Below, piece by piece: positions 14,240 through 62,374 of a stretch of DNA of 64,000 nt. Under the pieces are notes generated by a model. That model was given only the letters and a program-made list of their open reading frames with translations, made no database searches and was not told where the DNA came from. Where the stretch lies: contig JAQGDQ010000193.1 of NCBI GenBank assembly GCA_030141605.1, forward strand, positions 62,001-126,000, given 5' to 3'. Source of the DNA: Tubiluchus corallicola (Eukaryota > Priapulida > Priapulimorpha > Priapulimorphida > Tubiluchidae). Made by a program: the position numbers and the translations under genes. Position 1 is the stretch's first letter. Every line of letters starts with the position of its first letter.

Positions 14240-14289
14240 ATATTGAAGATGACATTGCTGCATCTGTAATAGATACCAAACTAGCTTAA
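14240..14289 (+). other. Possible C-terminal tail of an upstream gene, ending 10 bases before SNAPC3
   Basis: A good acceptor (tttacattacag) ends at 14239. The sequence after it can be read in phase 1 as IEDDIAASVIDTKLA-stop, with the TAA at 14287-14289. SNAPC3 starts at 14300. It may be the last few codons of an upstream gene whose final exon is shared with SNAPC3, or only 5' UTR of SNAPC3. Sixteen open codons can arise by chance. Confidence 0.25.
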
Positions 14290-14299
14290 TTTTGTCCAA

Positions 14300-26099: not shown

Positions 26100-27443
26100 A
26101 TGTCTTTACTGAAAAATGTGTTTATTGCTAGCGCAAAGAGGACACCATTTGGAGCTTATGGTGGCAAGCTAAGAGACCTCACTACAACAGATTTGGCTGT
26201 TATAGCAGGAAAGAGTGCGTTAGAAGAAGCTAAGTTATCTCCAGAGGGTGTTTCGTCTGTTATTATTGGAAACGTGGCACAAACGTCAAGTTGTGCAGCA
26301 TACTTGGCAAGGCACACAGGTATATTTGCTAATTTTGCTCTGCTTGTTCTTTTCTCGTGATTGTGATGTGATAACTTAAATGCGTTATATTAACTATAAC
26401 CTGATCATTGTAAGTTTACTTGTAGGTTTAAATTAAAAATATAAAAATGACTAGTACTAATACAAATAATTTCAGGACTAAGGTGTGGCACACCAGTTCA
26501 CGTTCCAGCTATAACTGTCAATAGGTTGTGTGGTTCAGGATTCCAAGCTGTAATTTCCGGTGCTCATGAAATTCAATTAGGAGAAAGCGATATTGTTTTA
26601 GCTGGAGGTGCTGAAAATATGAGCATGGCACCCTATGCCTTATGGGGTACTCGCTATGGCACTAAGTTTGGACAGCACTTAGAACTGAAATGTATAATGT
26701 GGACAACGTTAACAGACCAGTATACAAATCTACCCATGGGAATTACAGCTGAAAATCTTGCAGAGTTATATGGTATTACTAGGGAGCAATGTGATGAATT
26801 TGCACTACTTTCACAAGAGCGCTGGGCAGCAGCAAATGACTCGGGGAAATTTAAATCTGAAATTGTGCCAGTTGTTATAAAATCTAAGAAAGGTGACTTG
26901 ATTGTGGATACGGATGAGCATCCTAGGAAAACGACCATGGAGAGTTTATCTAAGCTGCCAGTTGTTTTTAAGAAAAATGGAACAGTCACTGCTGGTAATG
27001 CTTCTGGTGTTTGTGATGGTGCCGCTGTCATAATACTTGCAGGTGAAGAAGGTGTAAGGAAACATAATTTGAAGCCAATCGCAAAAGTTATCGGTTATAA
27101 TGTTTCGGGTTGCGACCCAGCTATAATGGGGATTGGTCCTGTCCCAGCAGTCAAGGGAGTTTTGGAACGAACTGGATTGAAACTGGATGATATTGACGTT
27201 TTAGAAGTAAATGAAGCATTTGCTCCACAATTTCTCGCTGTACAGAAAGAACTCGGGTTAGATCTGAAGAAAACAAACGTCAATGGTGGTGCCATCGCTC
27301 TGGGTCATCCAGTCGGTGCTTCTGGGGCCAGAATCATTGCAAATCTTACTTATGAATTACAGAAAACTCAAGGAAAGTATGCTCTTGGATCAGCATGCAT
27401 TGGTGGTGGACAAGGCATTGCAGTGTTACTGGAAAGGTGTTGA
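26100..27443 (+). CDS. ACAA2: ACAA2, mitochondrial 3-ketoacyl-CoA thiolase, two exons, complete
   Basis: Catalyses the last, thiolytic step of mitochondrial fatty-acid beta-oxidation. Exons 26100-26319 and 26476-27443 join in phase 1 at ARHTG/LRCGTP and encode 395 residues, nearly the length of the human enzyme (397). Visible motifs: FIASAKRTPFGAYGGKL at the N terminus, the acyl-accepting cysteine in VNRLCGSGFQA at about residue 92, GGAENMS, the catalytic histidine in GGAIALGHPVGASGARI at about 352, and the C-terminal cysteine in SACIGGGQG. All catalytic residues are present. The N terminus starts directly at the thiolase fold, as in ACAA2, whose import signal is not cleaved (family knowledge). 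Only one intron remains, few for an animal thiolase gene. Confidence 0.95.
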
Positions 27444-29420: not shown

Positions 29421-30848
29421 GTGTCTGTTGTGCATAGACAATTAAACATATAATTCCTTCATGTGTCATGGCACCTTTTTGGTATGTGCTAGCTCCCTCT
29501 AACTTTAAAACTTACATGCTATTGCCCTGAATATGGTATCAAAGATATACTATTCTCTATGCTTATTATCAGTGCCTGAATTGAGGACATACATATTTAT
29601 GCATGTATGTACTTATATAAAAATTATATACTTTCTTCAAAAATAATTTCTTAAGACTTTCATGCACATTATTTCTTGCTAAAGTTTTTGATTTTTTTAC
29701 ATAGTAAAATTAAGCTTTTCATTTGATGCTGAATTGGCTGTTTAGTGTTGAGCTTTATAGTCAAACAGCTTTAGTGAAATCATAGGTGAAATGAACTTTT
29801 TGTTGTGCCTAACACATTAATTGTTGAACTTGAGCCTATAAACTATTTCCCGCAGTCTAAGGAGATGCCATTCGGAAATGATTCTATTTCCAGCTGTAGT
29901 TTTAAATGTTAAGGTGACAACGTTACAAATGCAAAAATCAAACCAGCACTTGAAGCTAGTCACACTAAACTGCAGCACAAAAAGATCTTTCTTGTCGTGA
30001 TGAAAAAAATCACTGTGTGAAATCAATTTTATGTGACCTTTTGGAAAAAGGGTTGCTTCTTTCTTTTTAATTATGCAAATCACTCAGTAACTTATTAGTT
30101 TCACTAATGCTTTCCTTTCCATTTCTTAATGCTCATATGTAGAGGACTGTCTTCAAGAGAAAGGTTTTTACACTACTTTACTATGAACATGTTAGCTAGT
30201 CAACTATTAATGAATTGTAACTAATGCCGAACCTATCGGTACATGTTCAACTTTTTTATGTACTAATAAATACAGCTTAAATAAAAAATCTATATATTAA
30301 TTTCGGTGATATATATAATTTCTTAATTTTCTTAAGTCTCGTCGTAGAAAAGAACAGAAGTTATAGTATAGTGAAAAAACTGTACAACGTCCACAGTTAC
30401 TTTGATTTCTGGTATTGCTAGGAAGACTGAAAGTGGAACAGGAGCCAAAGTTGTTGTTATGAATTACTTCTACGAGATGGGAGCTTGGAAGAGTCACACA
30501 CGCCCGCAGTAGAAGAACATAACCGAGCATTCGTGGAGTGAGTGGTTCTATAAATCGTTGCCACTCTAAAGTTTCACTGTTATTTGTCAGAAACCATGAT
30601 TATTGCTTTTAGAGATTTTTCTAATCTGTCGTACTTTATGCTAGTGTAATTCTTTCATTATGTACAGGTGAGACAGAGATGAAGAATTGTGGGTCAAAGT
30701 AAATAAAGAGCAAGCGTCTAGACTACTAATTAGAAAGAAGTTGGAACTCGCATCAAGTGATCAGCATTATTAGGTGCCTAATGTAATTAACTAGTTAAAA
30801 CTTCAGTTATTGTAAAAAAATAGTTGAATAAAAATTTTATGAAATAAA
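29421..30848. other. Spacer upstream of ARL16
   Basis: No recognisable coding sequence. A possible non-coding first exon of ARL16 lies around 30470-30535, where cattcgtg is followed by donor-like gagtgagt, but this is weak. Confidence 0.3.
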
Positions 30849-31376
30849 ATGCATCTGATAGTTGGGCCAGTAGCTGTGGGTAAAACTACGTTAATGAAGA
30901 GACTTCAATCTTATGGACAAGGGAACAGAGAATTTGCTGAACAGGATTTGCCCACGACCATTCCGACTGCTGGGACTAATTTAGTCAACATTATTTTGGC
31001 CAAGAAATGTGAACTTACTATTCGTGAGCTTGGTGGACAGATGGCACCTATTTGGCATAATTACTACAAAAACTGCAAGTGCTTTATGTTCATGGTGGAT
31101 ATCAGTAACAAAATGCAAATATCGGCTGTTGCAATAGAATTAATGGAGGCCTTAAGGTCTAAAGATTTGAAAACAGCAAATGTGCTAATCATATTCAACA
31201 AGTCTGATGCCGCCTGCTTTACTCTTACTGAAATAGTGTCTGTTATCATGCTGGATGACATTAAAAAGCATGCGCCTCAGAACATAGAGTATACGCTCAT
31301 TAGTGCCAAGACTGGGGATGGTATTATTAAAGTAATACAATGGTTGCGTGAGTCTGTTGAAAAAGCTGAAAGCTAA
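30849..31376 (+). CDS. ARL16: ARL16, ARF-like GTPase 16, intronless
   Basis: A 175-residue ARF-family GTPase, about the size of animal ARL16. It starts MHLIVGPVAVGKT, so the P-loop begins at residue 6. There is no room for the myristoylated N-terminal helix of classical ARFs, which is the ARL16 pattern. The switch I region has PTAGTNLV. The G3 motif is RELGGQM in place of WDxGGQ, a characteristic ARL16 change. NKSD serves as the guanine-specificity motif and SAKTGDG as G5. ARL16 has been linked to ciliary trafficking and the Golgi (literature knowledge). The ATG is the first in frame, and the coding region is one exon. There are no co-directional neighbours close enough to suggest an operon. 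Confidence 0.88.
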   Translation: MHLIVGPVAVGKTTLMKRLQSYGQGNREFAEQDLPTTIPTAGTNLVNIILAKKCELTIRELGGQMAPIWHNYYKNCKCFMFMVDISNKMQISAVAIELMEALRSKDLKTANVLIIFNKSDAACFTLTEIVSVIMLDDIKKHAPQNIEYTLISAKTGDGIIKVIQWLRESVEKAES

Positions 31377-40335: not shown

Positions 40336-40355
40336 ACAATAGCTGTTAGCTAGCA

Positions 40356-41630
40356 ATGGCAGATGCTTTAGAGTTGGAACTAGAAGATGGTGAAATATCT
40401 GATGGAGAATGTGAAGAACTACTGAGAGCCAGCGAGGAAGATAACAATGTGGACGAGGACAACGAAATTCCAGATGATGATTGGACGCCACTTCCAAGAC
40501 CTACTGCACCTGTCAATCCACCGTCGTTACCGGCAGTAGTGAAGCATGAAGAACAAAGCGGGAGTGATTCGGAAAAAAGCAGTAACAGCGATAGCGACTA
40601 CAATGCTGCTAGTGGAGACAGTGCATGGAAAGGAAAGAAAAAATTGCCACCTAGGCCAAATCGACCAGTTTACAGTGGGATGCCAGCTGGTGGTAATGAA
40701 GGTCCTCTTAGGAAACGGAATAATGTTTGGTCTACCATTGCAGAGGAGCAATCACTGGCTCAAGGACTAACAGGATTCGCTGTAAACAAAGACGAGTTTA
40801 ACAATGACAGAAGCGTAGAAAGCTACGATTATACTGTTGCTAGTGTGGCTTCTGTCAAGCGAAAACGAGATGACTGCGAAGAGGAGGAAGGTGAACTCTC
40901 CTCCGAAGAGGAAGATTCGATGGACTGGAAGCGTTCCGACAGAAAGCAGTCCGATTGGAAACGAAAGCGAATCGGCGATAGCGTAAAATCTGTTGAAGAA
41001 AAACCGTGGAAGAAGCCTGTAAAAGAACGGGTTGGCACAATGACAATGAAACACCGAATTGAACTAAGCATAGAAGATACACAGGAAAAAATAGTTTATG
41101 AGATGGCCCACCGGTTGTCAGAACCTAAAGTGAGTTTATTGGGTCGTGTTGTGGAAGCGCTGGGAAATGCAAAAACATTGTCCTTGCTTGGTGAAACTGA
41201 AGACATTGAACTTTCCGGGGGACTTTTGACGTTGGACGGGTCACGCCGTCGTACTCCTGGTGGTGTGTTCCTGCAGCTGTTGAAGAATGACGCGGACATT
41301 ACTAAGGAGCAGGTAGACCAAATCTTTCTTGTAGAGCGCCAAAAATACAATGAGCAGAGGGGGAAAGAGCGGAAGAAGAAACGAAAGTCAAGTAGAAGGA
41401 AAGCAGCTGGGAATGCAGCAGAGTTGAAAAAAGAAGCCTCGGCTACAGCAAATACAGTTGAATACGAAAAACCTATAAAAGAAGAATTCGAATTTGGAGA
41501 TGCAGTTGTAGAAACCAAAGAGTTAGAGATAAAGGAAGAGCAAGCAGAAACAAAACATATTAAAAAAGAAAATTATTCAACAGAAGGTCCATCATGTACT
41601 GTAGAAGTAATTAATGGAGCTATTACTTGA
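40356..41630 (+). CDS. PHAX: PHAX, phosphorylated adaptor for RNA export, intronless
   Basis: Nuclear adaptor that bridges capped snRNA/cap-binding complex to CRM1 for export (family knowledge). The protein has 424 residues. The N terminus is acidic (LELELEDGEISDGE), with Ser/Asp/Glu-rich patches and GELSSEEEDS, which resemble CK2-type sites. Basic KRKR stretches at about 168 and 202 could act as nuclear localisation signals. The conserved PHAX RNA-binding domain spans about residues 235-325: TQEKIVYEMAHRLSEPK, then GSRRRTPGGVFLQLLKND and the helix EQVDQIFLVERQK. The tail is charged, with a run of Lys/Arg at about 335-350. The start at 40356 lies in gcaATGg, and a stop in the same frame at 40347 rules out an N-terminal extension. 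An AATAAA at 42153-42158 is a possible poly(A) signal. Confidence 0.93.
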   Translation: MADALELELEDGEISDGECEELLRASEEDNNVDEDNEIPDDDWTPLPRPTAPVNPPSLPAVVKHEEQSGSDSEKSSNSDSDYNAASGDSAWKGKKKLPPRPNRPVYSGMPAGGNEGPLRKRNNVWSTIAEEQSLAQGLTGFAVNKDEFNNDRSVESYDYTVASVASVKRKRDDCEEEEGELSSEEEDSMDWKRSDRKQSDWKRKRIGDSVKSVEEKPWKKPVKERVGTMTMKHRIELSIEDTQEKIVYEMAHRLSEPKVSLLGRVVEALGNAKTLSLLGETEDIELSGGLLTLDGSRRRTPGGVFLQLLKNDADITKEQVDQIFLVERQKYNEQRGKERKKKRKSSRRKAAGNAAELKKEASATANTVEYEKPIKEEFEFGDAVVETKELEIKEEQAETKHIKKENYSTEGPSCTVEVINGAIT

Positions 41631-44473: not shown

Positions 44474-45660
44474 TCAGGATGACTTATGTCGTCTGTTCTG
44501 CCTGGTCGCTAGTTCTTCTTGTATTTGCACAAGTGTCTTATATATGATGGCAAATTTAGGCCTATTCGATGGCTTCGCTTGCCAGCAAAGTTTCATCAAC
44601 TCGTACACGGGCAGAGGTGTATCAAGCGGGCTCTCCAACACGTGCCCACTTTTGGTAAATCGTATCACCTCTTCATGCGTCTTGCCGTAATACGGTTGCA
44701 TTGCAAACGAAAATATCTCCCACAGCAAGACCCCAAACGACCACACGTCCGACTGTGTAGTGTACTTGCTATACAGTATAGCCTCTAAAGGCATCCACCG
44801 TATTGGGACTGCATCGTTCTCGTTACCCTGGTAGTAATTGGTTGTATAGATTTTTCTTGAAAGCCCGAAATCACTAATTTTCACAATCAGATTGTCACCC
44901 ACCAAGCAGTTACGTGTGGCGAGGTCGCGGTGCACAAAGTTCCGAGACGATAAATACACCATCCCGGAGGCGATCTGCTGCGCAATGTACAGTTGGTCCC
45001 TCTGCTCTAGTTTCGCTTCCACCCTGTTGTTGGAGTTATTTTCCGACACTATGTAAGGTGAACATGATCTGAGGAAATCATTCAAATCACCTTTGCTCAT
45101 GTATTCGAACAGTAAACACATCGGTTTACCAATTGCACAAACGCCTAATAGTTTTACAATATTTGGGTGGTCAAACTCGCACATGAGCGAAGCTTCTCTT
45201 TCAAAATCAGCTTGCAGGTCCTCCGAAGCCTCCTCTTTTAGCGTTTTGACCGCTACGTACACGTATTCCACGCTTTTCACTAAACCCGGTGCTTTGGCTT
45301 GAAATACTCTTCCGAACGCTCCCTGGCCGATGTCGCGCACGTACACGATGTCATTACGTGAATACTCCATCTCACACAGTTTTGGGTTTAACGCCATTTT
45401 ATCATGTTCATGGTAGTGAGCATTCGTAGGTAATGTGGTCAGGTCGATTTCCACATCGCGCGTTGCAGTGCTACGATATGGTGTCAAACACGTTCTGTGT
45501 GCTCGACGGCACAGTACACTAAGCATAGTCACTAGCACCAAAATACCGACCGCTATACTTGAAATAATAGTTATTTTTTCTGTAGTTTCATCACCAAAAA
45601 TGGACCAGCCTAATTCAAATGCCTCCTTGGTGGCATTGTTTTCATTGAGGTAGTCGTTAG
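44474..45660 (-). CDS. MUSK: MuSK-like gene: transmembrane and complete kinase in one exon
   Basis: This exon opens [14 protein letters not shown] after an acceptor at 45661-45662. It encodes the membrane helix [20 protein letters not shown], the juxtamembrane region and the whole kinase. Kinase landmarks: GQGAFGRVF (P-loop), [11 protein letters not shown] (lysine), [17 protein letters not shown] (catalytic loop), KISDFGLSR, and the MuSK/Trk/ROR-type activation loop YTTNYY with three tyrosines, followed by [12 protein letters not shown]. All catalytic residues are present. The juxtamembrane tyrosine that in vertebrate MuSK lies in NPMY, the Dok-7 docking motif, is here in TNAHYHEH, without the Asn-Pro. 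The C-terminal tail (RQNRRHKSS) is short and basic. Vertebrate MuSK splits this region over several exons. Confidence 0.95.
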
Positions 45661-48600
45661 CTGTAAAACAAAAGGAACAATAAGCAACAGCAAACTGAAT
45701 GCGGCACAACAAGCATACTTATGCTATGAAATTTACCTTCACAATTCCATAAAATTAATTTAGAGTTTGATTACTTTCTTCTATTAGATCTTGTACTTGC
45801 TTATATACGCACATCAACAAAGATGCTAAACATGCTTGCAGGTACTCAGCCATCAGTTAAAATGCGTCAAATCATTATCGAAGGTATACCACAAGCTGCG
45901 ACAACAATTCTAAAAACATTCACCATATCACTTATCATTGCATCGCAAAATTTTCCAAAAGCAATAATTTTTTCAGGCGCTAATTACAGAAGGAGGACCC
46001 GACAGCATAATACTCCTTCCTCCTTTTTACAGTGACTTTTATCACTTATAATGTGGCAATGTTTGTGATCAAATGTGTATGCATATAGTGTGAAATAAAA
46101 TAAATTCAATTCAATTCCTGTTACTGTTTATTAGCTATTCTTTTTTGTAATATTTTTGGACTTATTTGTCAGGTTGTCTACCTTTTTTGATTATTCTAAA
46201 AAGCAACTTAAGTTCGGTGTTTAACACGAGTGAAAAACAAGACCTCAGAGAAATCCTAAAAAATCTGGAAGTAAACCTCGACGGATACTCCATCGTTTTA
46301 ACTACCAGATTAGCACGTTAACACACTGTGTTCCAGAAAACTGTCCACTGGCATGAGTGGAAATTGTACGACAAAGTGGCTATTTACTGACTAACGATAA
46401 TTTATAAAGCACTTACCACAACGTTTAATACTACAATTATCCCATCGTGTAAACTGATCTTGGGTAAAGCACCACGGCTGTTCGCCCTCTCCCAGCGGGT
46501 TGCGACAATAATTCTTCGCATTTCTCAAGCTGGGATAAACATCGGGAAAAAACTTATGACTATGAGGAACCTGGAAACGGAAGAAGGAAAACAATGAAAA
46601 TGATTCACTTTTATTGAGCTTATAATTTTTCTCTCTTTCGAAACCCATAACAAATTTACAATGACAGATCTGACCTATATACTCGATCTACTCCAGCAGA
46701 CTGTTCAGGTACACACTGGATTCCTGTGCAAAACAACAAAAGTATCCCAAGAAATAAAAATACAAGCCAAAAAGTTTGTGTTTTTTTCGTTTTTGATACA
46801 ATCAAAAGTTTCTCGGCAAAACGGAAAATTTATAGCGCACAGGGGTGTATCAACACGTTACGATGCCCTAGGCTGATGGTTCTGTCTCGCCCACCTCTAC
46901 TGTGAATTTAAGTTGTCTATGTAACGAGCGATTTAAACAATTACTTGTGATGTATAAGAAACACTATTAAGCTAGTTTCTACATGGTCATTATTAATTAC
47001 ACGTATTTGCATAGCGCTTATATTCAAGCAGACTGCGCAACTGCTTGTTGTGTAATACTTTGCACCTGTTCGTTATGTGGCACTTGTAAAAGCTGCATTC
47101 AGAACTGCCTGCGGTGTGCTATAAAATGTGCCCTTTACTGAATATGAAAGTATGCACATTTTCCAAGGGGAATGAATTTTTTTCCTAAAATGTGACGACC
47201 TAAACTATAGCATAGTTAGCCTACTGGTTAGAACTCCCCTGATTATGCAGGCCAAGCCTGAAATCCAAAGTCCAAGAAGTTCTTATTCATCTAAGAAGCT
47301 ACGACAATCTTCGTAAAACAGCATGCTGCGATATAAATAACTTTTAAAAGTCACTCACCTGTGCATTCCAGTATTGACAAGGTTTTCCCGATTCAGTTAC
47401 ATTGAGAGTTCCCTGATAGAAGGCACCTTTTTCATGAATACACTCGGCTGAAAAAACATTACACGATAAATTTTCCACATTATCATAGTGCCTGCACGTA
47501 GCAACCGTGCTTTGAAACACCTCCAAGACTTCACATGTATAGGCCACACTTTTATAGTAATTTAGTAAATGACCATGACCTGCCGATTTTTTATTGAAAA
47601 ATCTTTAATAAAAAATGAGAAAAAATTCATTGATTATTGTGGGATATTTACCAAATTGATGTTGTTCTTGCTATATTAAGAATTTGAAAACTCTATTTTT
47701 ATAGTAAATTTTTTGATTTTTTGTCTACCATATCTCAGGAGAAACTGTTACATTTATTCTTTGAACTACGCAGCAACTGTTCTATTTAACTATACAGTTA
47801 AACTGTTTTTATACTATTATACTGTATATTTTAAACTGCTTTTGCTAATATAAAAGGAGGCAAGCCACAATGCACACACTTCACACAGAACTGAATGAAT
47901 CGCACCAATTACTTTTGGAATAATTGGTAGGAAGTTAGGATAAAATGAACACAACTGTTCTTTGTAAAACCCTAGTTTTAAGCTTATTCAAACAACGTAC
48001 TAGTGGACTCGTTCTTGGCTCGTATCTCCCACTCGGAGTGCCAGTGCAGCGCCACCGTACACTTGCCACTTGAAATGCTGGGCAGCTCATCGCACGCCGG
48101 CAAGCGGAAGTGGCCGCGTGATTTCAGCGGATTTCCTGCCGCTTTATCATTCTCGATTTGAATCCAGTTGCTGTAGCAGAGAAAGTCTTTCATCATGTGG
48201 CATTCTTCTCTGTAATTAAAAGACAGTAATGATTAAGAGGTGTGATCAGTACATGCACGGATGATCCAAGGATGCTGTAAATGGCTGCAAGGAAGAGATG
48301 CTGTAGTAAGCGGCTGCAAGGAACGGATGCTGCAATAAACGGAGGTATCTGCAATAGATTTCCCTTTGCATATCTCAAACAAAACAGATTAATGATTTAA
48401 TGTCTCGACAACTGTCCCTTAGGTCACCATCAGGAGAAAAACACAAGAGAAAATGGTACAGAGATTACTGAACAGTTTGCCCTTACAGCACTTAGTAAAA
48501 AACAGTCAGCAGCAGCAACTTAACATAATTTAGCTAAATCAAAATAATCACGTGCGAAGTAAAAAAAAGCTATTTCCATTTAATGTGTGGGGAACATAAA

Positions 48601-51600
48601 CCTGCATGAACACAACACAGTGTAACGCACGTTATAAAATGATTTGCTGAATATTTGTCTGCACAAGAAATGTGGCTGAAAATTTTTCATGTTATAATAT
48701 TTCCGCTTTTCATCAAACTGAACGATGCGAGTTTATGTATGTGTCTGTGCAGACAAAACGTTTACTACGACACTGTGATTATCCTGCAAAATTATCATAA
48801 CATCCCGGAAGCCAGTAAGATTTCAAAGATGCAATACCTGCAAAGTGGCTTGGGTTTAATGAAGCCATCCGTCATGTCGCAGTTAGGAAACGCATAGTGA
48901 CACAACATTTTTTCACCTGGTATCCTGCACCTAGCCTCCATAGTAGAAAGCATTTCCACCCATAAACCTAAAATTGTATAAAAAGTGTCTACAATCATAT
49001 CGAAAATGGTATAAAAACTTTACACACACTAACCAACTAGACTGCAATTCAACCCCGTTACTAAACACGCATTGTTAAATTGCAAAAGAAATTCAAGTAC
49101 TCCACAGTATCCAAATTGCTCTTTCAGATAAAATGTTCAGATACGTGTAATAACTTCACACAAACTAGGAGCAAAAGGCCTACTTAGCACCACAGTAGAT
49201 GAAAGAAATGCCCTTCATGGAGAGAGTCAGTGGCATAAAACAGTGCCAGAAATGTTAGAATGCAATGTCTATTAAGATAACCCACTGTAAAGTGCAAATG
49301 TACGGGGTTAGCTTCTATTTCCTACATGAGACATCATAACTGATAAGAAAAAAGAAATATCATTTCAATAGTAATAAATAACAAATTATATTCTCATCAC
49401 TGTCAGAAGTAGAACTTTAATTTAACAGACCAGATTTGGAAAATGATTATGGCGTATACGATAAGCTTTTGAGCAATCGCGTTGATGAGCTAAGATACCT
49501 TTGGTGATGTTTTCGTTTAGCTCTGCCGGTGTGCTGAAAGTTGTATTAAGATAAACGTGACGTTTTCCCAAAATGTGCCTGCAGATGGAGCCACTGTATG
49601 GCACACACTTGCCCTCCGAGTAAGCTGACAATGGCCACAGTGTTGTAGAAGACCTAGAAATTATGAAAATTTTTAACATTTCAAGCAATTCAGGAAATTA
49701 CAAAATAATAAATTTTCAAGAAACTTTACAAAAAAATATTTCTCAAGAAATGCCTGCTGACGTTTCGTGCCCATATCTATGCAAACCACTAGAATTTAAG
49801 ATCGTTGATAAATTGCCCACTAGTTATATTCTAGCTCATTAAAATACAACAAAACAAAAAACTGAAAAAACTTTGTTCAATTTCTCACTAGATGGCTCTA
49901 GTGACGTAAGTTCTGGTTTTAACTAATTAAAAATGCTAGTGTCCAATATGAAAATTTGTTGTCATGACTGTGGTTGTAATTTCTTCTGCTCGGCAATATT
50001 TAGGCTGCCTGGCTTTAAAATGTGAAAAGATTCACAAAAAATGTCAGTCAGTAAATCTTATAACTAATCAAAATGTTCAAAAGTTTGATTGCTTGAAAAA
50101 AATTTAAGATGGGAATATAACAGCACTGCCCTGAATTTTTTTTTGAATACTAATTTATAGGTATCTAAATTAATATAAAGCATACACACACGCATCTCGT
50201 ATATGCCGTGATGCTAGGCACTAATAGCGTGGTAATTCTTTGCAAAAGACAGAATTTAATGCAAGTACTTTGTGCAGTACACCAAAAAGTGGACTACTAT
50301 CGTTGCATCGTAATCATGCTTGTGCTGTCACCATTGAGTGATGCCTGTATCACTTTGCTTATTATTATTTAATCAATTCACTATTAGAGAAACGGTAATC
50401 ACAGATACGAATGCCAAATTAGCATCGGACTCAGAAGAAATATGATGGAATGTTCTCTTTGGGTGACTGTTAGTATTGTCCTAGTTGAAATGTATATCAA
50501 AACTTTATATCAATTAAAACTATGGTCATTGCCACTTTAGCTAATGTGGCACTGGAACACTGAAAACCATGCCATTGCTGTTTTAGCTAACGTCGCACTG
50601 TATCATTGAAAACTATGCCGTTGCCACTTTAGCCAGCGTGGCACTGGATCATTCAAAACTATGGTCATTACCGCTTTAACTAAAGTGGCACTTGAACATT
50701 GAAAACTATGCCATTGCCATTTTAACTAACGTGGCACAGCATCATTCAAAACGATGTCATTGCGCATTTAACTAACGTGGCGCTTGAACATCGAAAACTA
50801 TGCCATTGCCATTTTAGTTATCGTGGCACTTGAACATTGAAAACTATGTCATTGCCATTTTAGCTAATGTGGCACTACATCATTCAAAACTACGTCATTG
50901 CCATTACCAGTAATTATTTTACCAACAAAATACAAAAACATTGAAGTTTTAGGCAGCACAAAATTATGCCCCAATCATGCACTCATTATCAAACTACACT
51001 ATTCAATTTGCATTCAGTACATTATAAACTACAATTTAAAATACAAGGTAAACAAATGAATAAGCATATGACCAAATACTTACTTTGCTGCTGGATAGGG
51101 AACCATCGTGTCAACAACATTGAACATGAAAAAGAATGAAAAAAGGCCAGATTTAATAATGATAAAAAGCATCTTGTCTCAGTGCTAACTTATAATAATA
51201 CAGGCATTGCTTCACATCCCTTTAGTTTCATCCAATTGTCTTACTAGCGCGTCCATGGCTTCACTAGTGAACAAAAGGCGCAGGTTCAGGACTCGCAAGA
51301 CATCAATCGACTCAGTGATATAAGTGACTCACGGCGAGAGGCAGTCATCCACTACCAATGCAAAACACTCATTTAACATTTGATACAACACAAACACTAG
51401 TTCTAGATGCTCTATTATCACTGCAGTTTCCAATTCGCAGCTTCAAGAATTTGCCAGATACGCAAATGGATTAATAAATGCACCAGCACGAGTACAAAAG
51501 TGAAATGGACTATAAGTTTCACAGATTTATTGCAAATTGCAAGACTGCTTCAGTTCACGTTCTAGGGTCAAGACACGGCTGACTGTACGTTATCTGACTT

Positions 51601-53295
51601 TGACATAAATGCCTGACCTGCGTCTGACTCTTAGCTGTGCGAATTAGTTGACCAGCTGACCGATGAAGAGACGAGTTATTGGTCACGTAGTCGGTACAGT
51701 AAAACAAATAATGAGGTACTTATCGTCGGGAAACTTCCAGAATTTCAACCCGCGAACCCACACTTTGAGAATGGAACCCACACCATAAAATTTATACAAT
51801 TTTAGGAATGTTAAAAAGATTGTTAATAAATTTTGATTATGACACAAGGCGCACACGATGCAAAATCTGTCTGCTGACTGGATAAACACTGCATTTCAAA
51901 CGATGTCGCACACGAATCCGTTTGCGACAACTCGTCTGAGACACGTTCTTGCTCGTTTGCGGGCTCGATAAAGGACTGAATTCCCAACTTTGTCGCACCC
52001 AAATTTTATTAAACGGGCTTAACTTTCCTGTCTAAATGATAATGCGCTCGTTTGCGGGCTTGGAGCAAAAATCTTACGTTACCAGATCTTACCTTACCAT
52101 ACCATACCCTAACTTACTTTTCTTTGCATTAACTTACCTTACTTTACCTGTCTTCACCTTACCTTACTTCAGGTAAACAGTAGATGTCCACCTAATGGAA
52201 ACCTTAAAGACAAGCGAGATAAACAAAATAATTTGAACAAAATTAAGAAGTGAAAAACAAAACACAACAAAAACTAGTTAACTAGACATAGCAAAAAACG
52301 TTGACCAAAGAAAATCTGGTTTCTACATTCTTTTTTTATGGAAGACACATTGCACGAACAAATTTTTAATGAGCTTTATTTGCGATTACGTAGTTGTAAT
52401 TTACACATGACCTTCAAATCAGCTAAGAATAGACTCCGCTTGTCCTGAGCTTTAATTTCATATGATCACACTCGATTCTTTCCTGTTCCCTGACTGTCAA
52501 AACCCCTGATAATAATTGTAGGCAAAAAATTGGGTAAAATAATATTCTCTTAACAGAGATATAATGATGCAGAGAAACTGCGTGAGATGCCCTTTTTAGG
52601 CCGTAGAAGCAGGATGACAGATATGCCGAATTCTATATCAACTCATGTCATTTTCATAAAGCAGTGTCATTTACTTTCAACTGATGGAAAATAAAAATCA
52701 TAATTTACGCCACTGCAATTTGAAAAAATCAGGGAAGTCAGAATCACTCGGCAGTTTTTGTGACCTTTGACCGTATCGTTGCAAAATTTTCAAAGATCTT
52801 GCGACTCTGTACCACTGTAGAAAATTGAAACTGAATGAGTGAGAAGTAAATAGATGGTAGATATACAAAGCAAAATGAATAAAGAACGTGGAACATTTCA
52901 CTGTGAAAACGAAATCCAGTACATAAGTCCTCATTATCGGCTAGCAGGTGGCGGGACAGATGTTCAAAAACATGTGAAAAAGCTTAACTCATTCAACAGA
53001 TGCCAGTGCGTCATAGGATTGGACAATCTGGGGGCAATAAAACTCTGTCACATTGCTAATACATGTGTAAAACAGCAGTGAACTGTAAAACTTTCCAGCA
53101 CATACAGACTCAACGTAAGAGTCTATATTGTAGCTGTTCTCAGTCCCTATTGTCGCCATCAACCAAAAATTCATATCATCTAGTCCAGAATGTGAAGCAT
53201 TGAGTTATCAATTTATTGAGCTTTCTGCCCAATTGTGTGGATATGTCATTCAGAACACCGATTGTCGTTGCCGTGGAATCTGTTTTATCATAAAA

Positions 53296-53366
<71 letters not shown>

Positions 53367-56300
53367 TATTATTATTATTATTATTAGAATAGGGAGTAAC
53401 TCCATTGTGACGTCGAGATACAAAAATTGGCTAGAAAGTTAAAAACTTATTACATGAACCACGAGAACGAGAACAGCGCCACGGCGAAAAAGATGATTTT
53501 ATTGAGTTACGTCGAAAGCATGTAACCCCAAAACATTTTTGGTGGGGCAAAATACCTGGTTACTCAGAAACACTCAAATGAAATGATTTCTGAGTAATCA
53601 TTCACGGCGAACATAAAAATTTAATGGTCCAACAACGAAAGAAAGCCTTTTGTTATGATAGTTAATTGTTCACAGGAACTCTTTATTTACGGTGATATAG
53701 CGTGGCTATGAAAAAGCAATCATTTTATGTTCTGGAAATTCTTGCTTGACATTCCCCCAAAAAACCATTTGGAATACCAGATCTTGTCATAAAGGAGCGG
53801 GAAAGAAGATTAGGCCTGAAACCCATCAAATATCAATACTCCGCAATCTTCATTTTAGGCAGCCAGGTGCAGCTCAACGGTAGCGTGTCTGCTTCCGACC
53901 TGAGAGGTTGCAGGTCCAACTTCCGATCAATATACCAAAGTCTTAACAAAATAGTATGTTGAATCTTCGAGCAAACAAGCGAGCTTACCAAAGTAGTGCG
54001 CGGATAATAATATTCGAGACCAACTTGGAAATTACTACAGGCTGCATTGTAACAAAATTATTATTATTTATAAGCTGGTACAATAAAAAAAGAAAAGTGG
54101 AGTAGCGGAGTGAAGGAACTGGAGTGTAATGCAGCAAGTGGCATATACTTGCTGAGCAGATTACTGAAGAGATAGAAAAGTGTAGAGAAGTACTTAGCAT
54201 AAAAATTTTGTTTATAGACTAATAATCCTTAACACCAAAACGTTAACTCGTAAAAGTACAGCATCTAATAAATAAATAACAATGAAATGTTTAAAAGTGA
54301 TGCAAAATTAAAATTTAAGAAACTTCACATGCTGAAAAGCTCATCAAACTTCCTTACTCGGTTTACTTTGGTAATTTCAAACTGCATAATATGAAAACTT
54401 GAAAATGAAAAAACAATTAACAAGTAAATTTTCCAGAAACTCACCCGAAACAGACAAAGCTTGAATAAAAACGAACAATGTTAAAAAAGTACGCATCATT
54501 TTATAATTGTTTGAAAATGATTGCATAAAACAGACACAGTTCATAGCCCAAACTATATCAGCCATGACCACGAATTGGTCAGTATCAGAACTAAATACCG
54601 TCCTGTTCCTTAGGTCTCAGTATTATGTCAGCAGCAGAGTTTAGGAATCAAGAATTACCCAATCATGGTCCACATATAGTAAGAAACTGATACGAGCTTA
54701 GAAAACAGCAGCCAGACACATGGTCACTAGCAGCTGTTGTTATAAAAGCGTGGGAAAACAACGCAACACATTGAAGTTAGTGATTAAGCTGCATGCTCAT
54801 CCGGCTACGGTAAACCGGCAATAGAATCGAATGGCAAGCTGCGTTCTCATTAATGGCGTGCAACGGAACCGGCAAAAATACTGAATAGGCGAAAAAGAAT
54901 CGAACGTCACTCAAGTGCAAAATCCTTACAGACATACAGACAGACAAAGACACAGATTTATTGAAATCGTCATTTGAAACAGAATTTGATTAACTAACAA
55001 TTACGAAAAATAAAAATACGTATGAAGAAAAGTATCAGTGGTAGGCGTGCAGGAAAAAAGGATAGCAAAGGGCCAATTTGACATCTGAAACAAGATAGCG
55101 AAGGGCCAATTTGACATCGGAAACAGGATAGCGAAGGGCCAATTTGACATCTTTTGTCATCAATTAGCTAAAAAAAGCACTAACACGTAAGTGTAATCGC
55201 ATCTTATCAACGAGCTTAAATGACGTGGATTAAAAATATTGAAAAAATTCTATTTCTGTTGCATATGATAATAATTAAGGAAAACACAATCCAATCCAAG
55301 TTGACAAAGTTCCCCGAGAAAGCAATTCAACTAAGAGCTAATGTAGTGAGATGGTTATTGCAAAATAGGTGATGTATGTATGATGTTCTGATATTACTTT
55401 GTGTTTCTTTAAAACATTTTCTGTGAAACACCTGGCTGCTACCTCCACTACCCCCACATCAGTGAAACGTAAATGAGTATTTCTTGTAATTTTGTAAGTT
55501 GTCATGCTATGATGTTGTCTCTTTAACTAGGAGTTATTGGCATTATTGTCATTTGTAATTTATGTTGATATTATTTTTTGCATCGTAGAAATGTGTCACC
55601 ATACTAGAATATTTTGTTGTATTTTGTCAAATTTACATTTTTGCATAATTATAAATTGTATTTCCTATGTGTATTGCCAATGTACTAGAAGGCTATTTGT
55701 GCAAATAAACTGAATTGTATTGTAATGTATATTAAGCTTAATAAACTGCGAAATAAGTTCCTGTAGAATTGGTGGGATTGATTCTTCCGTTCTCCCCATT
55801 CGCCGGCACGTCTCTGTTACGGCAGAACTTTTAAAGCTTTACCAACCGAGGGCGCCACAATATCATACCACTAATTTATTATCCATGCTCACCTTTAACA
55901 TCATTTTGTATAATGTTAATTCTGAAGGGGAAAGAAAACGACTTAAAATCGCCAAAGTCGTTATTTATAACTTCTTTATAAAAAGCCAATTAATCTTGAC
56001 ATAATCATATTTAGGCCTCTATCATGAAGGGCGAAGATTTCAACGTTATACGCTTTTATTTCAACGTTAAATAAGTGTTCATTCATAACGTTAATCGTCA
56101 GAAATGTCATTTTTTCACATCTCAGTAATTCAAAAACCCAAAACAGAAGACGTTACAAGACTAAAAACTAAAAGAAAACTGCATAAAACGTTACAAAAAT
56201 TGAGTTTGCAACTGCACTGTACTAATCTTTAACTGTGCAAGAGAGCTCAACCCCGTGCATTCACATTTGCATTAAACTAATTAACATTCGATGATGTACA

Positions 56301-59300
56301 ATTAAAACGGCATTAAATTTCACATCTGACTGCTAAAACTATAAAACCTTTACAAATGATTAAGGCACATTCAGCAGACTGTAATGATCGCATTATAAAT
56401 GAAAACGGTTACGGTCATGTCATTAGAAAGCTGAGGAAACGGGTCGTTTGTCTAGACGTCGAGTATCGTTTATGCTGTCATAACGTAATCCTAGATCAAT
56501 GACGCATTTGCAATATGCATGCAGGCGGTAATAATTTTAAAAATAATGACCAATTTGGGAAGCTGGTGAACAAAGCGTCGTCTGGAACACGGGATATTAC
56601 CAGACAGGAGAGGTCGGCTGGCTCGGAGGAGGCAACGCACAGGAAAAAAGTGAAAAATGTACTGCCATCGACGAAAAGCAGTCGCCTGACGCTAGCTGAT
56701 GAAGTGATCAAGTATATAAACTGATGACAGTCTACTAAGAACTATTACAGTCACAAAAACAGAAAAGCTTCTGTTTATCTTATATTCTGAGAAAATAAGG
56801 TTTCCCGACGACTTATATTTGATGTCGTAGCGACTCTAATATAAATAGACACAATATTTTATAAGTCAGTCACACTAATTTGATTTCCAATTTTCTACGC
56901 AGCCAGTCGAGTGTACAAACGGACCAATGATGTTCACCTTGTGGTAAACTTTTACCACGGAGTTAGACGCTAATATTAGTGTTTAACTCTGTGCTGAGAA
57001 TAATTGAAGTTTTGCAGTCGCGTTCTTCTGGTATCATGCTGATTCACAAAGTAGTGGTTTAAAATTGCTGCCATATATTATATATGAATGTAAAATATGT
57101 TATATATAGAGCTATATTTTATACAAAGCGTTATATATAGAGCGTGATATGTAGGTGTAAAATCGCTGCAGACTGATGAAAATAAATTTGATGCCACTAA
57201 AATTCATGTGAATCGCATAAACTCCGTCAATAAATCCCTATTTAGTTCCTGCTGTGTTTGTCAAAATTACTTTTAAAAATAAACTTTTAAAAATAAAATG
57301 TTTAACAAAATTTTTAAAAATAACGACAGACTTTTGAAACATCCTGTACTTCTACGAGTGTTTATTATTGACAAAGTTTAAAACCAGGCAGTCAGATATG
57401 TACAGCCGTGAAAACCAGTAATCCCATTAAATTAGATGCAAAGATACATAAACCTAACAAGTAACACACATCTGCCAAACACTAAAACAGACCGACCCGG
57501 AGTTTCTCTCAAAACAGGTTCCTTCCCAGTTTCAAAATTTATTTACAAAATACCATTTGTTACGAAAATGTTAACGCTCATCCGGGCGAACAATTTAATA
57601 CACCTGTAATGCATACAATCCATACAGGTATTCGCATTAATGTACACCTGCAAAGTCGGGTATTCAATTTCATGTAGATCTGTACACACAGACATGCGGG
57701 TTGATTGACAATTGATTGGGTAATCCAGCCCCTTGATTACAAGTAAATAGTAGTGATTTCCAAGAAATGAAAATTAAGCATTATTATCAAACCAGACCGA
57801 GGAAAAGATTTCAGTGGTGGGCAAACCTACATCGATGTTCGATTTTAATACAACCTTGACCTTTAACCTTTTATTTCTATATTCATGTCAGATACCAAAA
57901 AATAAAGACAAACAATCTTCCGCCTTGTGTGCAAAGAAATTAATAAAATCACCAATCAATCACAGTCTCCAAAGATACTAAACTCACTTTTGAACTTTGG
58001 CCTTACACAGGGTTCCCTCAGAATTTTAAAATAAATTTCCCTGACTTTCCCTGACCAAATATTGATTTTTTATGACCAAGATAAGCAGAAACTGTATTAC
58101 TGATATACATATTCATACATCTTTGTGTAAGGAAATGAATACATATACGGATACATAATGTCGGCCAATCATTATTTTTAGAACTGAAATCGAAACTGGG
58201 AGCCTGTCAGGGCAAAATTTTATTTGAACTTGAATCGCTGAAAAATATGTTTGGAAAAATATAGGTTCACGGTGATTATTTTTGCAACCCTTTCCAATTT
58301 TCCTGATTTTTTTGCCCATTTACGTCATTTTCCCTGACTTTTCCATGACTTTCCAGGATAGCCTGTATTTTCAAGGATTTTCCAGCATTTTCCCTGACCG
58401 TGGGAACCCTGCTTACACCCGTATATTCAAACCAGGACCTTCTGATAGGAGCCCAATGCAAACGGCCAGCAGCATCCACAGAGACATTAGCTTCTACCAT
58501 TTTCAATAAGTCTGTAACCTTGACTTCCGACCTTTCAGCTCCACATTCTTTTTTCTTAATCTTTTATTTTTTTATTCTTTAAGGACCACGTAAGATCACA
58601 TAACAATCGAATACATTTTTAGAAATTACAATATAAAACTGCAAAAAACCTACAGAATTCTATGACGTTGTTTAAAAGCTACTGCCACATAAAATACGCA
58701 ACAAAACCAACGAAAGTATTGTGGACTGTTAAGATTTGAAACTACTGTCATAGCAGATCTATATGAATATAATGCAGTATTTAGATTTTGATTTTAGATA
58801 CAGTGTTTTACTAATTTGCCAATGACAGACAAGAACAATGTCATTCATGTCAACTAGAAGGTCAGGAAACCATTTCGAGTTGAATAGCTTGACCAAACGT
58901 GGTGATGTTAGAAATGGACATTTTAGCTTTACTGTTAACTAGATCACTGAATTTTTGTTCTGTATTTTTTTACATCAGATATAGTAACGTCAGCAGAATG
59001 AACCTTAAAATGAAAATCCGTGTCCTATCTGGTACTATAATAAGTTAACGGTGATAGTCCTTACGTTATAGCTTTCGTAGCCTCTGCTAGTACTGCTTTC
59101 ACTACTTAACTGGCACTACTACTGTGAAGCTTACATAGAAGTACATAGAAGAGATTAATCATCATCAGCTATTGGTACCCCTGCATCAATGTGCTAAATA
59201 TAGGTCAGAGAAAGCCATTAAGAAACCCAAACAAATCACCTAGCTCACATTAACAAGCCTACTATATTACCAGTAATGTACAAGCTCACAACTGATTCTG

Positions 59301-62300
59301 AGAAATATTATCCTACGCATGAATGTATTTACTAGCTTGTGATAGTAAATGACTTTCTGGGAACAAGTAATCAGTGACACGCACACAAATTACATGTATT
59401 CAGTTTGAAGCGAATAAACCAAAGCTTGTTGCATGCAATGCCAAAGAACACAAACACAAACCTTTGAAATGTACAGTTGTCAACCTAATCGATTAAAAAT
59501 TAAAAATACATGATTTATTACGGCTTTCCGATTAAGCAATGTTTTTGTTATCTTTATTGCAAGCAAAAAATTTATCAAAAATCAGAAAAAAATGAAAACT
59601 ATATCTATTGCAGTGTGTGCTTGACGGCTGAAGTTAAGCAACATTAAACTTGATGACAGTGGGAAGAGAACTGCTTCTGAGTGGTTTCACCAGCCAAACC
59701 AGCCTCAGTCATTTCTCTTATTGAGATGGTTTATGCGTTAGAAAGTTAGCCAAGAATCTCTTGTGGTTCAGAACTTCAGACGGTCACATTTGGAAGACTT
59801 ATGCTTAACAATGAGCATGGTCTCAAATCTCAATCCTATCATACTAATCTATAGTAGGCAGGCCCCAACCTTTGCAACACGACTCACAAAAACCTTCACA
59901 TTGCGTGTGAAAATCTACACTTTCCATAAAACACAATCACTGGATGGTAGTTACTCGTCATTTAGACGAGAGACACGAATCATCATAGGAAAACAATTCA
60001 ATACTTACAAGGAGGTTCTAGCACGGTAACGAGACTAGTATGATTCACGGCAGACTCTCCTCGCACGTGTCGATTTGACGCCTCACATGTGTATGTTGCT
60101 TGTTCGGTAGCATTTACATAGAGTGTAGAATTTGAGTAGAGTGTTTGCGTCTCTTTGTCTTTGATCTGAATTGTGAATATACAAGAAATTATGACACATC
60201 CGAAAGAAACTCTGCAAGGAGTGAGAGAAAGACTAACAAGTAACGAATTTGTCAAGTGAAACACCAAATTTCCTACATTACAGTAGAGTAGTAATTCAGT
60301 ACTTACTACACTATAATCTCTGTACAACCGTACAACAAGTTACTAAATGACAGGCCAGGGTATCGTTTGTTCTGTTTCTATATGACATACCATCGTGTAC
60401 ACATAGTCACATACATCGGAATCGATACTGGATTTGTATTGGAAACAATACTTATAAAAGCAATACATTCAATGACTATGAATTTAGTAGATGAACCATT
60501 TGTTATAGAGGAAACTGCAGTACTTCAGTGATTTGCTAAAACAGATGCGTGGTGCACTAATCATATTGAGAACTTATACCAATGAAATGACAAATGGCAA
60601 TTTACATTTCAAATGTCGGTCGCACCTGATAATTTTTTCTGAATTTTGTAACAAAAACTGACCTGCAAAAATCAAAAATTTGGGTGTAATTGCACCTGGG
60701 AAAATTGGGGGAAGTTCTAGTGGATTTTGCAGATAAAATACAAAAAATTCACATAAAATTTGATTCAATATACAGATCACTTCATGGAAAAATGATGTCC
60801 CGGGATAATTTTGAACTGAAAAAACGTACAGCGACATATCAATTACTGGTAACCAGGACTATTAAATAACATAACCTGAAGTTAGTAATTTTTGCATGCA
60901 GTACAAGCATGAGTTACTTTACATGACCAACTAATAAAATCACCTACTTGTTCGTCGTTTTTGAACCAACGAATAGATGGGACGGGTATACCAACAGCCT
61001 TACACTGGAGATTGATGACAGTACCCCATCGGACTGTGCGATTAGACGGCCCTTGGACGATGGTGGCTGGAGCTGTAAAACACAAAACAAGCACATGAAA
61101 CAACACTGATTATTTGTTTGCATAAAAAACCCTTAATTTTGTGTACATAAAAACTTATTTTTTGTGAGCATGCTATGCGGTAATCATCTCCAGTTTTTAA
61201 ATTAATAACAAGAACATCAAACTTACCTGTCAAAAAAAACAGAACATTTTACACATAACTTAGTATATGCACAATCCTGTTAAAGAGTTTTGATCATAAC
61301 ACTGCTGCAATGTCATAATTGGCTAAATTAATGCCTCTAAGTGAGAACTGTCGTTTGTTCCGAAATAACACCAACTTATCGAGCCTAAAAACATTAAGAA
61401 ATTACCTTGCACTGTCACATACGCAGATTTTGACTTGGCAACTGATTGGTCGGGTATCTTGGCTTCACAATGGTACCAATTCTCGTCCAAAACAAAAACC
61501 CGTTCAAACAACAAGCTGCCATTCTTTAGCACCCTGAAAACAAACTCTTGAAATGGAAAAAACTTTTCTAGTACTGTAAGCTATAAATAATTCATAAATA
61601 GATCAAGTTGTGTTGTTTTTGGCATATTTATAAAACGGTTAAATGAAACACTATGGAGCTAATGAGGAAACTGCTCATTATGCCAGTTCTCCTAAAGCGT
61701 TTTTATAGCTGAAATCTGGATATTATAAAAAAAACGCCGGATATTATAAAAAAACTGATGCAAATTTTTATCAGAATATTCCTTACAGTTGCAGTACTTT
61801 ACATTTGCACTGTACTGAGAAAAGTGAGGTAAGTAGCTTAGTGCAGTACAAACAAAAATTGTACAGTACCATATTAGCAAATAGCAATTCCAGGAAATGA
61901 AAATCAAAACCCAATCGAAAATTAAGACTGCTGCTGCTGCTGCAAATACACTTATGCATTTCTTTCCACATAGAATCACGCTTTGTCTGAATGCACAGTG
62001 AGTTTTGCAAAATAATATAAACCGGGAGTTATCTGTTGGTCGGTTCAGTATAACAAAACAAACTTAATACTTTCAGTAAAGTTTTGACTTCAATTACGTC
62101 TACACTCTGCAGTTACATTTTTTCATTGCACCTATTCTTATTCAATTTAAATTTAAAAATTTAATTATCCGCATAAATTACATTGCTACGACGACACAAA
62201 GTGAACAAAAAGTTAAAAAAAGAGGGAAAATCTACCTCTCTGCACGGAGTTTATTATTCTTGTCACTATACCAGCTAATCATTGGTGGCGGCTCTCCATA

Positions 62301-62374
62301 AGCTTCACATGGCAATAGCAACATTTCGTCAACCAGAACAGACACATTCCTTGGTCCCCGCAATATTATTGGTC
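44474..62374 (-). CDS. MUSK: MuSK-like receptor tyrosine kinase (Ig-Frizzled-kringle-TM-kinase), 5' end outside window
   Basis: Single-pass receptor of the MuSK/ROR group. Exons recognised, 5' to 3': Ig 62236-62374, 61406-61533, 60948-61072, 60009-60165; Frizzled 49499-49653, 48838-48967, 48001-48209; kringle 47359-47447, 46417-46570; TM plus kinase 44474-45660. The joins from Frizzled to kinase are in phase: R completed across 48838/48209, T across 48001/47447, phase 0 across 47359/46570, A across 46417/45660. Kinase wording matches MuSK more closely than ROR, for example [31 protein letters not shown] and [12 protein letters not shown]. Vertebrate MuSK has three Ig domains; two are seen here, so one more and the signal peptide may lie to the right. 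The link from the Ig exons to the Frizzled exons is not proven: the last Ig exon ends in phase 1, whereas the best acceptor of the Frizzled exon needs phase 2. Confidence 0.85.
46417..47447 (-). CDS. MUSK: MuSK-like gene: kringle domain (two exons)
   Basis: Exons 47359-47447 and 46417-46570 join in phase 0 and encode [20 protein letters not shown], then [35 protein letters not shown] and WDNCSIKRC. The six cysteines and the NYCRNP and PWCFT motifs are those of a kringle. Mammalian MuSK lacks a kringle, but MuSK of some other vertebrates and ROR receptors have one (family knowledge), so its presence here is consistent with an ancestral arrangement. Confidence 0.92.
48001..49653 (-). CDS. MUSK: MuSK-like gene: Frizzled cysteine-rich domain (three exons)
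   Basis: Exons 49499-49653, 48838-48967 and 48001-48209 encode [76 protein letters not shown] and PACDELPS. Cysteine spacing and order match the CRD of MuSK. The donor at 49498 (aaag/gtatct) gives exactly the residue spacing seen in vertebrate MuSK between LNT and the LLC cysteine. In this family the CRD is the Wnt-interaction module. The 5' boundary of the first exon is uncertain: tttctag at 49654 gives a phase-2 entry, while an internal ttgtcag about 30 bases on gives phase 1. Confidence 0.88.
50516..50908. repeat. Minisatellite, ~8.5 copies of a 46-bp unit
   Basis: The unit runs aaaactatgccattgccatt, then ttagctaacgtggcacttga, then acattg. Eight full diverged copies plus a partial one are visible. 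Unit ends fall into two classes, gaacattg and catcattc, that partly alternate. It is intronic in the MuSK-like gene, between the Frizzled exons and the signal-peptide-like exon. Confidence 0.9.
53296..53387. repeat. (ATT)n microsatellite
   Basis: About 30 ATT units with a single interruption (tactatt). The poly-isoleucine open frame across it is an artefact. Confidence 0.95.
53862..53945 (+). repeat. tRNA-like SINE head (degenerate)
   Basis: The stretch gcagctcaacggtagcgtgt resembles a tRNA D-arm/A box and gaggttgcaggtccaac resembles the T-arm/B box, at tRNA-like spacing. The anticodon arm does not pair properly, so this is a pseudo-tRNA or SINE head, not a working tRNA gene. Confidence 0.45.
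54445..54499 (-). CDS. Signal-peptide-like exon inside the MuSK-like gene
   Basis: On the minus strand an ATG at 54499 opens [19 protein letters not shown], a textbook signal peptide: basic residue, hydrophobic core, small residues at the end. It is followed directly by a strong donor (ttcgg/gtgagt), leaving phase 1. It lies between the Ig exons and the Frizzled exons, on the same strand. It could be an alternative first exon that gives a receptor without Ig domains, or the true first exon of the receptor gene with the Ig exons belonging to a separate gene. Because the last Ig exon also ends in phase 1, the two could be spliced to the same next exon. An upstream in-frame extension exists, but the Met-Met start fits a signal peptide best. 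Confidence 0.55.
55061..55152. repeat. Short minisatellite, three copies of a 33-bp unit
   Basis: Copies of gatagcgaagggccaatttg followed by acatcggaaacag start at 55061, 55094 and 55127; the last is truncated. Confidence 0.9.
55153..58007. other. Intronic or intergenic stretch, no gene recognised
   Basis: AT-rich sequence. About 55680-55740 (gcaaataaactgaattgtat) resembles a retrotransposon or transcript 3' end. A 69-codon ORF at 56515-56724 has no recognisable motif. Confidence 0.4.
58008..58411. mobile_element. hAT-like MITE, copy 2 of the CAGGGTTCCC family
   Basis: It starts cagggttccctcag and ends gaccgtgggaaccctg; the inverted repeat is about 10 bases. Overlapping the ends, cttacac is found on both sides (58002-58008 and 58412-58418), consistent with an 8-bp duplication with one mismatch. 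It is homologous over its length to 12954-13396. Confidence 0.75.
59615..59680 (+). repeat. Second 5S-rRNA-like SINE head
   Basis: The stretch gtgtgcttgacggctgaagt, then taagcaacattaaacttgat, then gacagtgggaaga corresponds to the 5S rRNA segment gaagttaagcaacattgagc...ctgggaa. It is more degraded downstream than the copy at 38601. It lies in the MuSK-like gene. Confidence 0.55.
60009..62374 (-). CDS. MUSK: MuSK-like gene: two Ig domains in four exons
   Basis: Exons 62236-62374 and 61406-61533 encode the first domain: [51 protein letters not shown]. Exons 60948-61072 and 60009-60165 encode the second: [49 protein letters not shown]. Each shows the C-W-YxC pattern of I-set Ig domains. Each domain is split by one intron, and each pair begins and ends in phase 1, so the modules are symmetric and can be skipped without frame change. 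In vertebrate MuSK the Ig1 domain binds LRP4; whether either of these corresponds to it cannot be judged here. Confidence 0.85.

Follow-up and report, generated by a model that had tools for sequence, protein, structure and literature searches.

The window is a 64-kb stretch of contig JAQGDQ010000193.1 (positions 62,001-126,000) of the priapulid Tubiluchus corallicola. The adjoining 10 kb, here called L001, was read together with it, adding 64000 to an L001 position giving the window numbering, and the scans described below as covering 74 kb comprise the window and L001. Four open reading frames on the plus strand match known proteins, namely SNAPC3 (14285-15457), thiolase (26451-27443), the Arf family (30843-31376) and the PHAX RNA-binding domain (40350-41630). 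On the minus strand lies a receptor gene, the model of which was built by reading the sequence and joining exons at consensus splice sites. The 11 exons joined in this way give a single open frame of 906 aa in which all junction phases are consistent.

In the direction of transcription, a predicted upstream signal-peptide exon (L001:7084-6940, or 71084-70940 in window numbering, thus outside the window; exit phase 1) is followed by two Ig modules, each split over two exons. The first module is formed by 62236-62374 (phase 1 in, 2 out) and 61406-61533 (phase 2 in, 1 out; no Pfam match alone), the second by 60948-61072 (phase 1 in, 0 out), which aligns with MuSK Ig3, and by the last Ig exon, 60009-60165 (phase 0 in, 1 out), which alone gives a Pfam Ig_2 match under the cut-off. 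Both modules are therefore symmetric 1-1 units. A phase-1 intron of 10,384 bp (49625-60008) separates the last Ig exon from the first of three Frizzled exons, 49499-49624 (entry phase 1), which alone has no Pfam match and was recognised by alignment with MuSK and ROR2. The second Frizzled exon (48838-48967) alone reaches 21.9 bits against Pfam Fz, below the cut-off of 32.1, and the third (48001-48209) alone has no Pfam match. Next come an exon for a linker and the first half of the kringle (47359-47579), whose acceptor was picked because the frame from Frizzled exon 3 stays open and not from RNA, and one for the second kringle half (46417-46570), identified by sequence reading and Pfam. The transmembrane segment, called by eye, and the whole tyrosine kinase domain sit in one exon that runs to the stop codon (44474-45660). 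Pfam is weak on single exons, with only the kringle and one Ig half above the cut-off; for the kringle, 46391-46687 scores 51.2 bits (cut-off 34.3) while 47344-47604 alone stays below it at 31.1 bits. No further Ig domain was recognised between 49 and 74 kb by a pattern search that found three of the four known Ig halves and one chance match that has a stop close by; since it missed a known half this is a weak test, and the gene may hold more Ig domains.

The kinase was compared with the PDB, where the top four matches are MuSK chains (434.9 to 423.1 bits), followed by TrkB at 300.1 and ROR1 at 268.7 bits. For the Ig-Ig-Frizzled part the best PDB match is human MuSK, aligned in one stretch (query 6-318 to 8s9p_C 120-439, E 2.2e-45), and the second Ig with the Frizzled domain aligns with 9lgg_A, a human MuSK Ig3-Frizzled construct (E 1.1e-31). 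On its own the Ig pair also finds good matches in Robo2 (6iaa_A, E 1.1e-35), DCC and further Ig proteins, so that the telling evidence is the joint alignment with Frizzled. Taken by itself, the Frizzled domain has a good match in ROR2 (106 bits). When the entire ectodomain is the query, the kringle and Frizzled parts lift plasminogen, HGF and ROR2 above MuSK. Vertebrate MuSK Ig2 is the best partner of the first Ig, which aligns only faintly with Ig1 (6.3 bits). From these alignments we take the two Ig modules to be counterparts of vertebrate Ig2 and Ig3 and to share one gene with the Frizzled exons. The kinase translation contains the ATP-site motif GQGAFG and a kringle is present between the CRD and the transmembrane segment; on this sequence evidence the host is one MuSK/NRK-type receptor gene. 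NRK and MuSK are treated here as one family because invertebrate genes, including those of annelids and Daphnia, cluster with Musk (PMC4812194), and because the best match of the kinase is MuSK. A Frizzled-kringle query has eight matches in the 343.5-Mb genome, of which five fall at this locus, two at C1718 and one at C1056 (weak, with five stops). At C1718:130141-136113 Frizzled, kringle and kinase matches follow in order on the plus strand, the kinase-search match lying just downstream of the others, and this locus is taken as ROR-like with its layout as the sole basis.

Of the new findings, the most useful is the upstream exon predicted to encode a signal peptide. This exon, L001:7084-6940 on the minus strand, reads MAVCFLPLINMKCSSSISYLLLPFILLDISGNGF... 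in translation; its exit phase is 1, as is the entry phase of the first Ig exon. It is predicted to be the signal-peptide exon of the Ig-bearing form. Its hydrophobic stretch is followed by RSRR, which resembles a furin site. Head-to-head with the receptor gene lies a DnaJ-domain open reading frame (L001:8122-8277, plus strand, E 1.3e-11) with its ATG at 8122. Given that only 1.04 kb separates the two ATGs, there is little space for a receptor start further upstream. As the Ig-bearing form would have a signal peptide of its own, any internal one is optional, which leaves two possibilities for it, a genuine alternative start or an accident.

Such an internal element lies at 54445-54499, within the Ig/Frizzled intron, and is a candidate alternative first coding exon that encodes a signal peptide of 18 residues plus one base and exits in phase 1. 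The peptide belongs to the minus strand, the one plus-strand frame translated at this place having stops. The preliminary description gave it a 19th residue, G, which results from reading through the donor and becomes A when the exon is spliced to Frizzled exon 1. The remainder of what was described there was confirmed: the signal peptide with its strong donor, its position on the same strand 5.5 kb from the last Ig exon (60165-60009) and 4.8 kb from Frizzled exon 1 (49624-49499), and, in the joined exons, an exit phase equal to that of the last Ig exon and of the symmetric Ig modules. At the donor (54437-54444) exonic CGG is followed by GTGAGTTT; with a weight matrix it scores 7.93 and ranks second of the eleven donors scored, the other ten ranging from 0.1 to 9.36, and it is the only one of at least 7.9 on the minus strand of the 10.4-kb intron. 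Frizzled exon 1 is entered in phase 1, so the candidate fuses to it in frame to give a predicted signal peptide-Frizzled-kringle-TM-kinase protein of 693 aa before cleavage. The cleavage site is predicted at the exon junction, and phase-1 introns are reported to be in excess near signal-peptide cleavage sites (PMC1626468). Other ATGs lie upstream; the one at 54565 is in frame and, if used, would add an extension of 22 residues (54500-54565, read from the sequence) and lengthen the n-region to 25 residues.

Neither a repeat origin nor a duplication is supported for the element. The segment 54300-54900 gives a single match in the 343.5-Mb genome, with no second copy found, and 54301-55100 compared with the 74 kb and 18 control pieces matches only itself and a short tandem copy (55121-55152), hence the exon being of repeat origin was rejected. 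Descent from the upstream signal-peptide exon was rejected as well, the two sharing only two 10-base matches. Several repeats were seen in the surroundings: three 32-nt tandem copies with a spacing of 33 at 55055-55152, about 0.6 kb upstream of the candidate; direct repeats with an offset of about 92 bp and about 80% alike at 50508-50905, and a long TAA/ATT microsatellite at about 53290-53390, both in the Ig/Frizzled intron; and a repeat shared by 58008-58411 and 12954-13396 with 76% identity. At 53860-53930, on the plus strand, a stretch looks by eye like a tRNA-derived SINE head; ARAGORN found no tRNA in the window.

A promoter for the candidate would lie within the same intron. Upstream of the exon, on 54740-54939, there are 13 CpG in 200 bp, the best among overlapping windows and at the 98.65th percentile of 5,023 windows. 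This equals the value upstream of the main signal-peptide exon, and 51900, in the same intron, reaches 16; the peak is a weak promoter hint. Neither the CpG scan nor a promoter scan with a bacterial model, inapplicable here, was discriminating.

How often chance gives a comparable element was estimated with a home-made scanner, used in place of a trained signal-peptide predictor, whose matches combine a start codon with a 9-residue hydrophobic stretch, a cleavage site by the -3/-1 rule and a donor, the last two hydropathy- and matrix-independent of any training set; its cut-offs were fixed post hoc, with the candidate already seen. It was run on the 74 kb, on 400 order-1 and 400 order-3 Markov simulated introns and on 36 control strand-pieces, each of 10 kb; these come from 18 places chosen non-randomly on contigs known from the genome search and may include real signal-peptide exons. 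At the scores of the candidate itself (donor at least 7.9, mean hydropathy at least 2.58) and in any phase, the candidate is the sole match in 74 kb on both strands. Under the same cut-offs none of the 36 control strand-pieces has a match, and the simulated introns have none in phase 1 (0/400 for each order) and 2/400 (order-1) and 1/400 (order-3) in any phase. With a donor of at least 7 and a hydropathy of at least 2.4, three simulated introns of each order match in phase 1 and 7/400 and 6/400 in any phase, the control pieces remain at 0/36, and a second element appears in the 74 kb at 61828 on the plus strand. This near-equal element (donor 7.71, hydropathy 2.57) has exit phase 2 and lies inside an Ig intron; no function is proposed for it.

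When the cut-offs are relaxed the candidate loses its distinction. At moderate values (donor at least 5, hydropathy at least 2.0) it still stands alone in phase 1 in the 74 kb on both strands, with matches in 5.5% (order-1) and 5.0% (order-3) of the simulated introns and in one of the 36 control pieces; in any phase there are three matches in 74 kb, two of them in the window (the candidate and 61828), and two in the 36 control pieces. For a donor of at least 3 in phase 1, the 74 kb hold only the candidate and the gene's own predicted upstream signal-peptide exon, while 16.5% and 14.75% of the simulated introns have a match and the control pieces give four. At a donor of at least 0, the level of the gene's weakest donors, there are eight matches in 74 kb, 61% of the simulated introns have one and 14 of the 36 pieces hold 20. 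The ROR-like locus was scanned on the plus strand over 10 kb ending inside its Frizzled match, which gave no match in any phase at a donor of at least 3 and one in phase 1 at a donor of at least 0; without a recognised Ig exon this stretch is a poor control. The candidate is therefore exceptional under strict and moderate cut-offs but not under weak ones; its excess over chance is modest to clear depending on the cut-off.

Among the possible explanations, the preferred one is that 54499-54445, on the minus strand, acts as an alternative first coding exon of the single MuSK/NRK-type gene. We give it a probability of about 0.45, and regard it as plausible and unproven. For the Ig-less isoform that the preliminary description had proposed, the strand, the frame, the phase, the donor strength and the cleavage site all fit, and the excess over chance varies with the cut-off.

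A serious contender, which we rate somewhat short of even, is chance itself: an AT-rich intron may by accident bring together a start codon, an open stretch of hydrophobic residues and a strong donor that never serve as a transcript start. Comparable elements arise in simulated introns at rates of 5.5% and 5.0% under moderate cut-offs and of 61% with weak donors, the whole window was surveyed when the element was first singled out, so that the three any-phase moderate matches in 74 kb, two of them within the window, have to be kept in mind, and 61828 is nearly as good in phase 2. Against an accident, no equal was found in the 36 control strand-pieces, simulated introns gave 0/800 in phase 1 and 3/800 in any phase, and the strand, the phase and the position of cleavage are all right.

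It is improbable that the candidate is instead the first exon of some other transcript, a nested gene or product whose next exon would lie elsewhere in the intron or beyond the kinase. Any downstream phase-1 acceptor would suit such a transcript, but the open reading frame that holds the candidate, the one of this intron covered by the Pfam scan, has no Pfam match and the only recognised downstream exons on the same strand are those of the receptor. Still less probable is the other possibility raised in the preliminary description, namely that the Ig exons are part of a separate gene and that an Ig-less receptor has its sole, genuine start at 54499. The intron is indeed long, at 10.4 kb, and the Ig pair alone resembles Robo and DCC well (6iaa_A, E 1.1e-35). 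Against this reading speak the Ig-Ig-Frizzled alignment with human MuSK in one stretch and as best match, 9lgg_A spanning Ig3-Frizzled, the 906-aa open frame over 11 exons, which includes a predicted upstream signal peptide, and the two Ig domains reported for the NRK of Lottia and Capitella (PMC2772990). Finally, a cassette exon between Ig and Frizzled can be discounted almost entirely: an AG ending at 54553, in the open stretch upstream, would by eye give entry phase 1, but it seems on inspection to lack a good pyrimidine tract, and an included exon would place a hydrophobic segment in the ectodomain.

Under the preferred explanation, the main transcript of the receptor gene would start at L001:7084-6940 and encode the signal peptide-Ig-Ig-Frizzled-kringle-TM-kinase protein of 906 aa. 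From a second promoter in the Ig/Frizzled intron, at some point upstream of 54.5 kb, would come internal-start transcripts that join the candidate exon to the Frizzled exon at 49624 through a phase-1 junction. Cleavage of the signal peptide near this junction would leave a receptor made of Frizzled, kringle, TM and kinase only. For this Ig-less form we infer the promoter, the transcript, its splicing and its secretion. As to function, it may be guessed that it would do without Ig-mediated contacts and rely on the Frizzled/kringle part, as insect NRK would. The broader proposal, that two promoters allow one invertebrate MuSK/NRK gene to produce two receptors, one Ig-bearing and one Ig-less and insect-NRK-like, is advanced tentatively, as possible rather than probable.

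The layout of the gene can be compared with those of known relatives. The NRK of the lophotrochozoans Lottia and Capitella has an IgC2 and then an Ig domain before the kringle, protostome NRK kinases carry GQGAFG, and no NRK was found in deuterostomes (PMC2772990). The priapulid gene is alike in its two Ig domains, kringle and GQGAFG kinase and has a Frizzled domain as well; unlike in the present proposal, an internal signal-peptide start is not described there (PMC2772990, section 27). The ectodomain of insect NRK (Drosophila Nrk), made of CRD and kringle without Ig, has the layout of the candidate isoform (PMC11219042, PMC2772990). In insects, however, the Ig-less layout is the architecture of the gene, whereas here it would be one of two proposed products and the Ig exons are kept.

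In zebrafish, the SV1 isoform of MuSK reportedly has no Ig domains. Zebrafish unplugged/MuSK makes two isoforms, SV1 acting in axon guidance and prepatterning and the full-length form at synapses after nerve contact (PMC2809748). It thus resembles the priapulid proposal in that one gene yields a full-length isoform and another that differs from it in role and timing, but there the two arise by alternative splicing (PMC2809748). With vertebrate MuSK the priapulid gene shares the collinear Ig2-Ig3-Frizzled order in one stretch and the best kinase match, and a kringle is present in the MuSK of fish, amphibian and bird (PMC3927609); vertebrate MuSK has three Ig domains against the two found here. 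In mice the MuSK domain bound by Lrp4 is the first Ig-like one, and in zebrafish it is the Frizzled-like domain to which Wnts bind (PMC5855712). Even the full form of the priapulid receptor has no recognised Ig1-like domain, as far as the weak pattern search over 49-74 kb shows. ROR has the same Frizzled-kringle-TM-kinase order, but the priapulid kinase is nearer to MuSK (434.9 bits vs 268.7 for ROR1), and the genome has, besides the MuSK-type gene, the other Frizzled-kringle-kinase locus at C1718. Among the titles and abstract openings of the matches listed from the open-access literature, none concerned an internal signal-peptide start in invertebrate MuSK/NRK.

If the alternative first exon is real, two receptor forms would reside together in one invertebrate gene, the Ig-bearing form known from vertebrates, molluscs and annelids and the Ig-less form of insects. 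The internal start would then have offered a ready route for the loss of the Ig exons in insects and would parallel the use of two MuSK isoforms in zebrafish, and the choice of promoter would separate Ig-dependent from Frizzled-dependent signalling.
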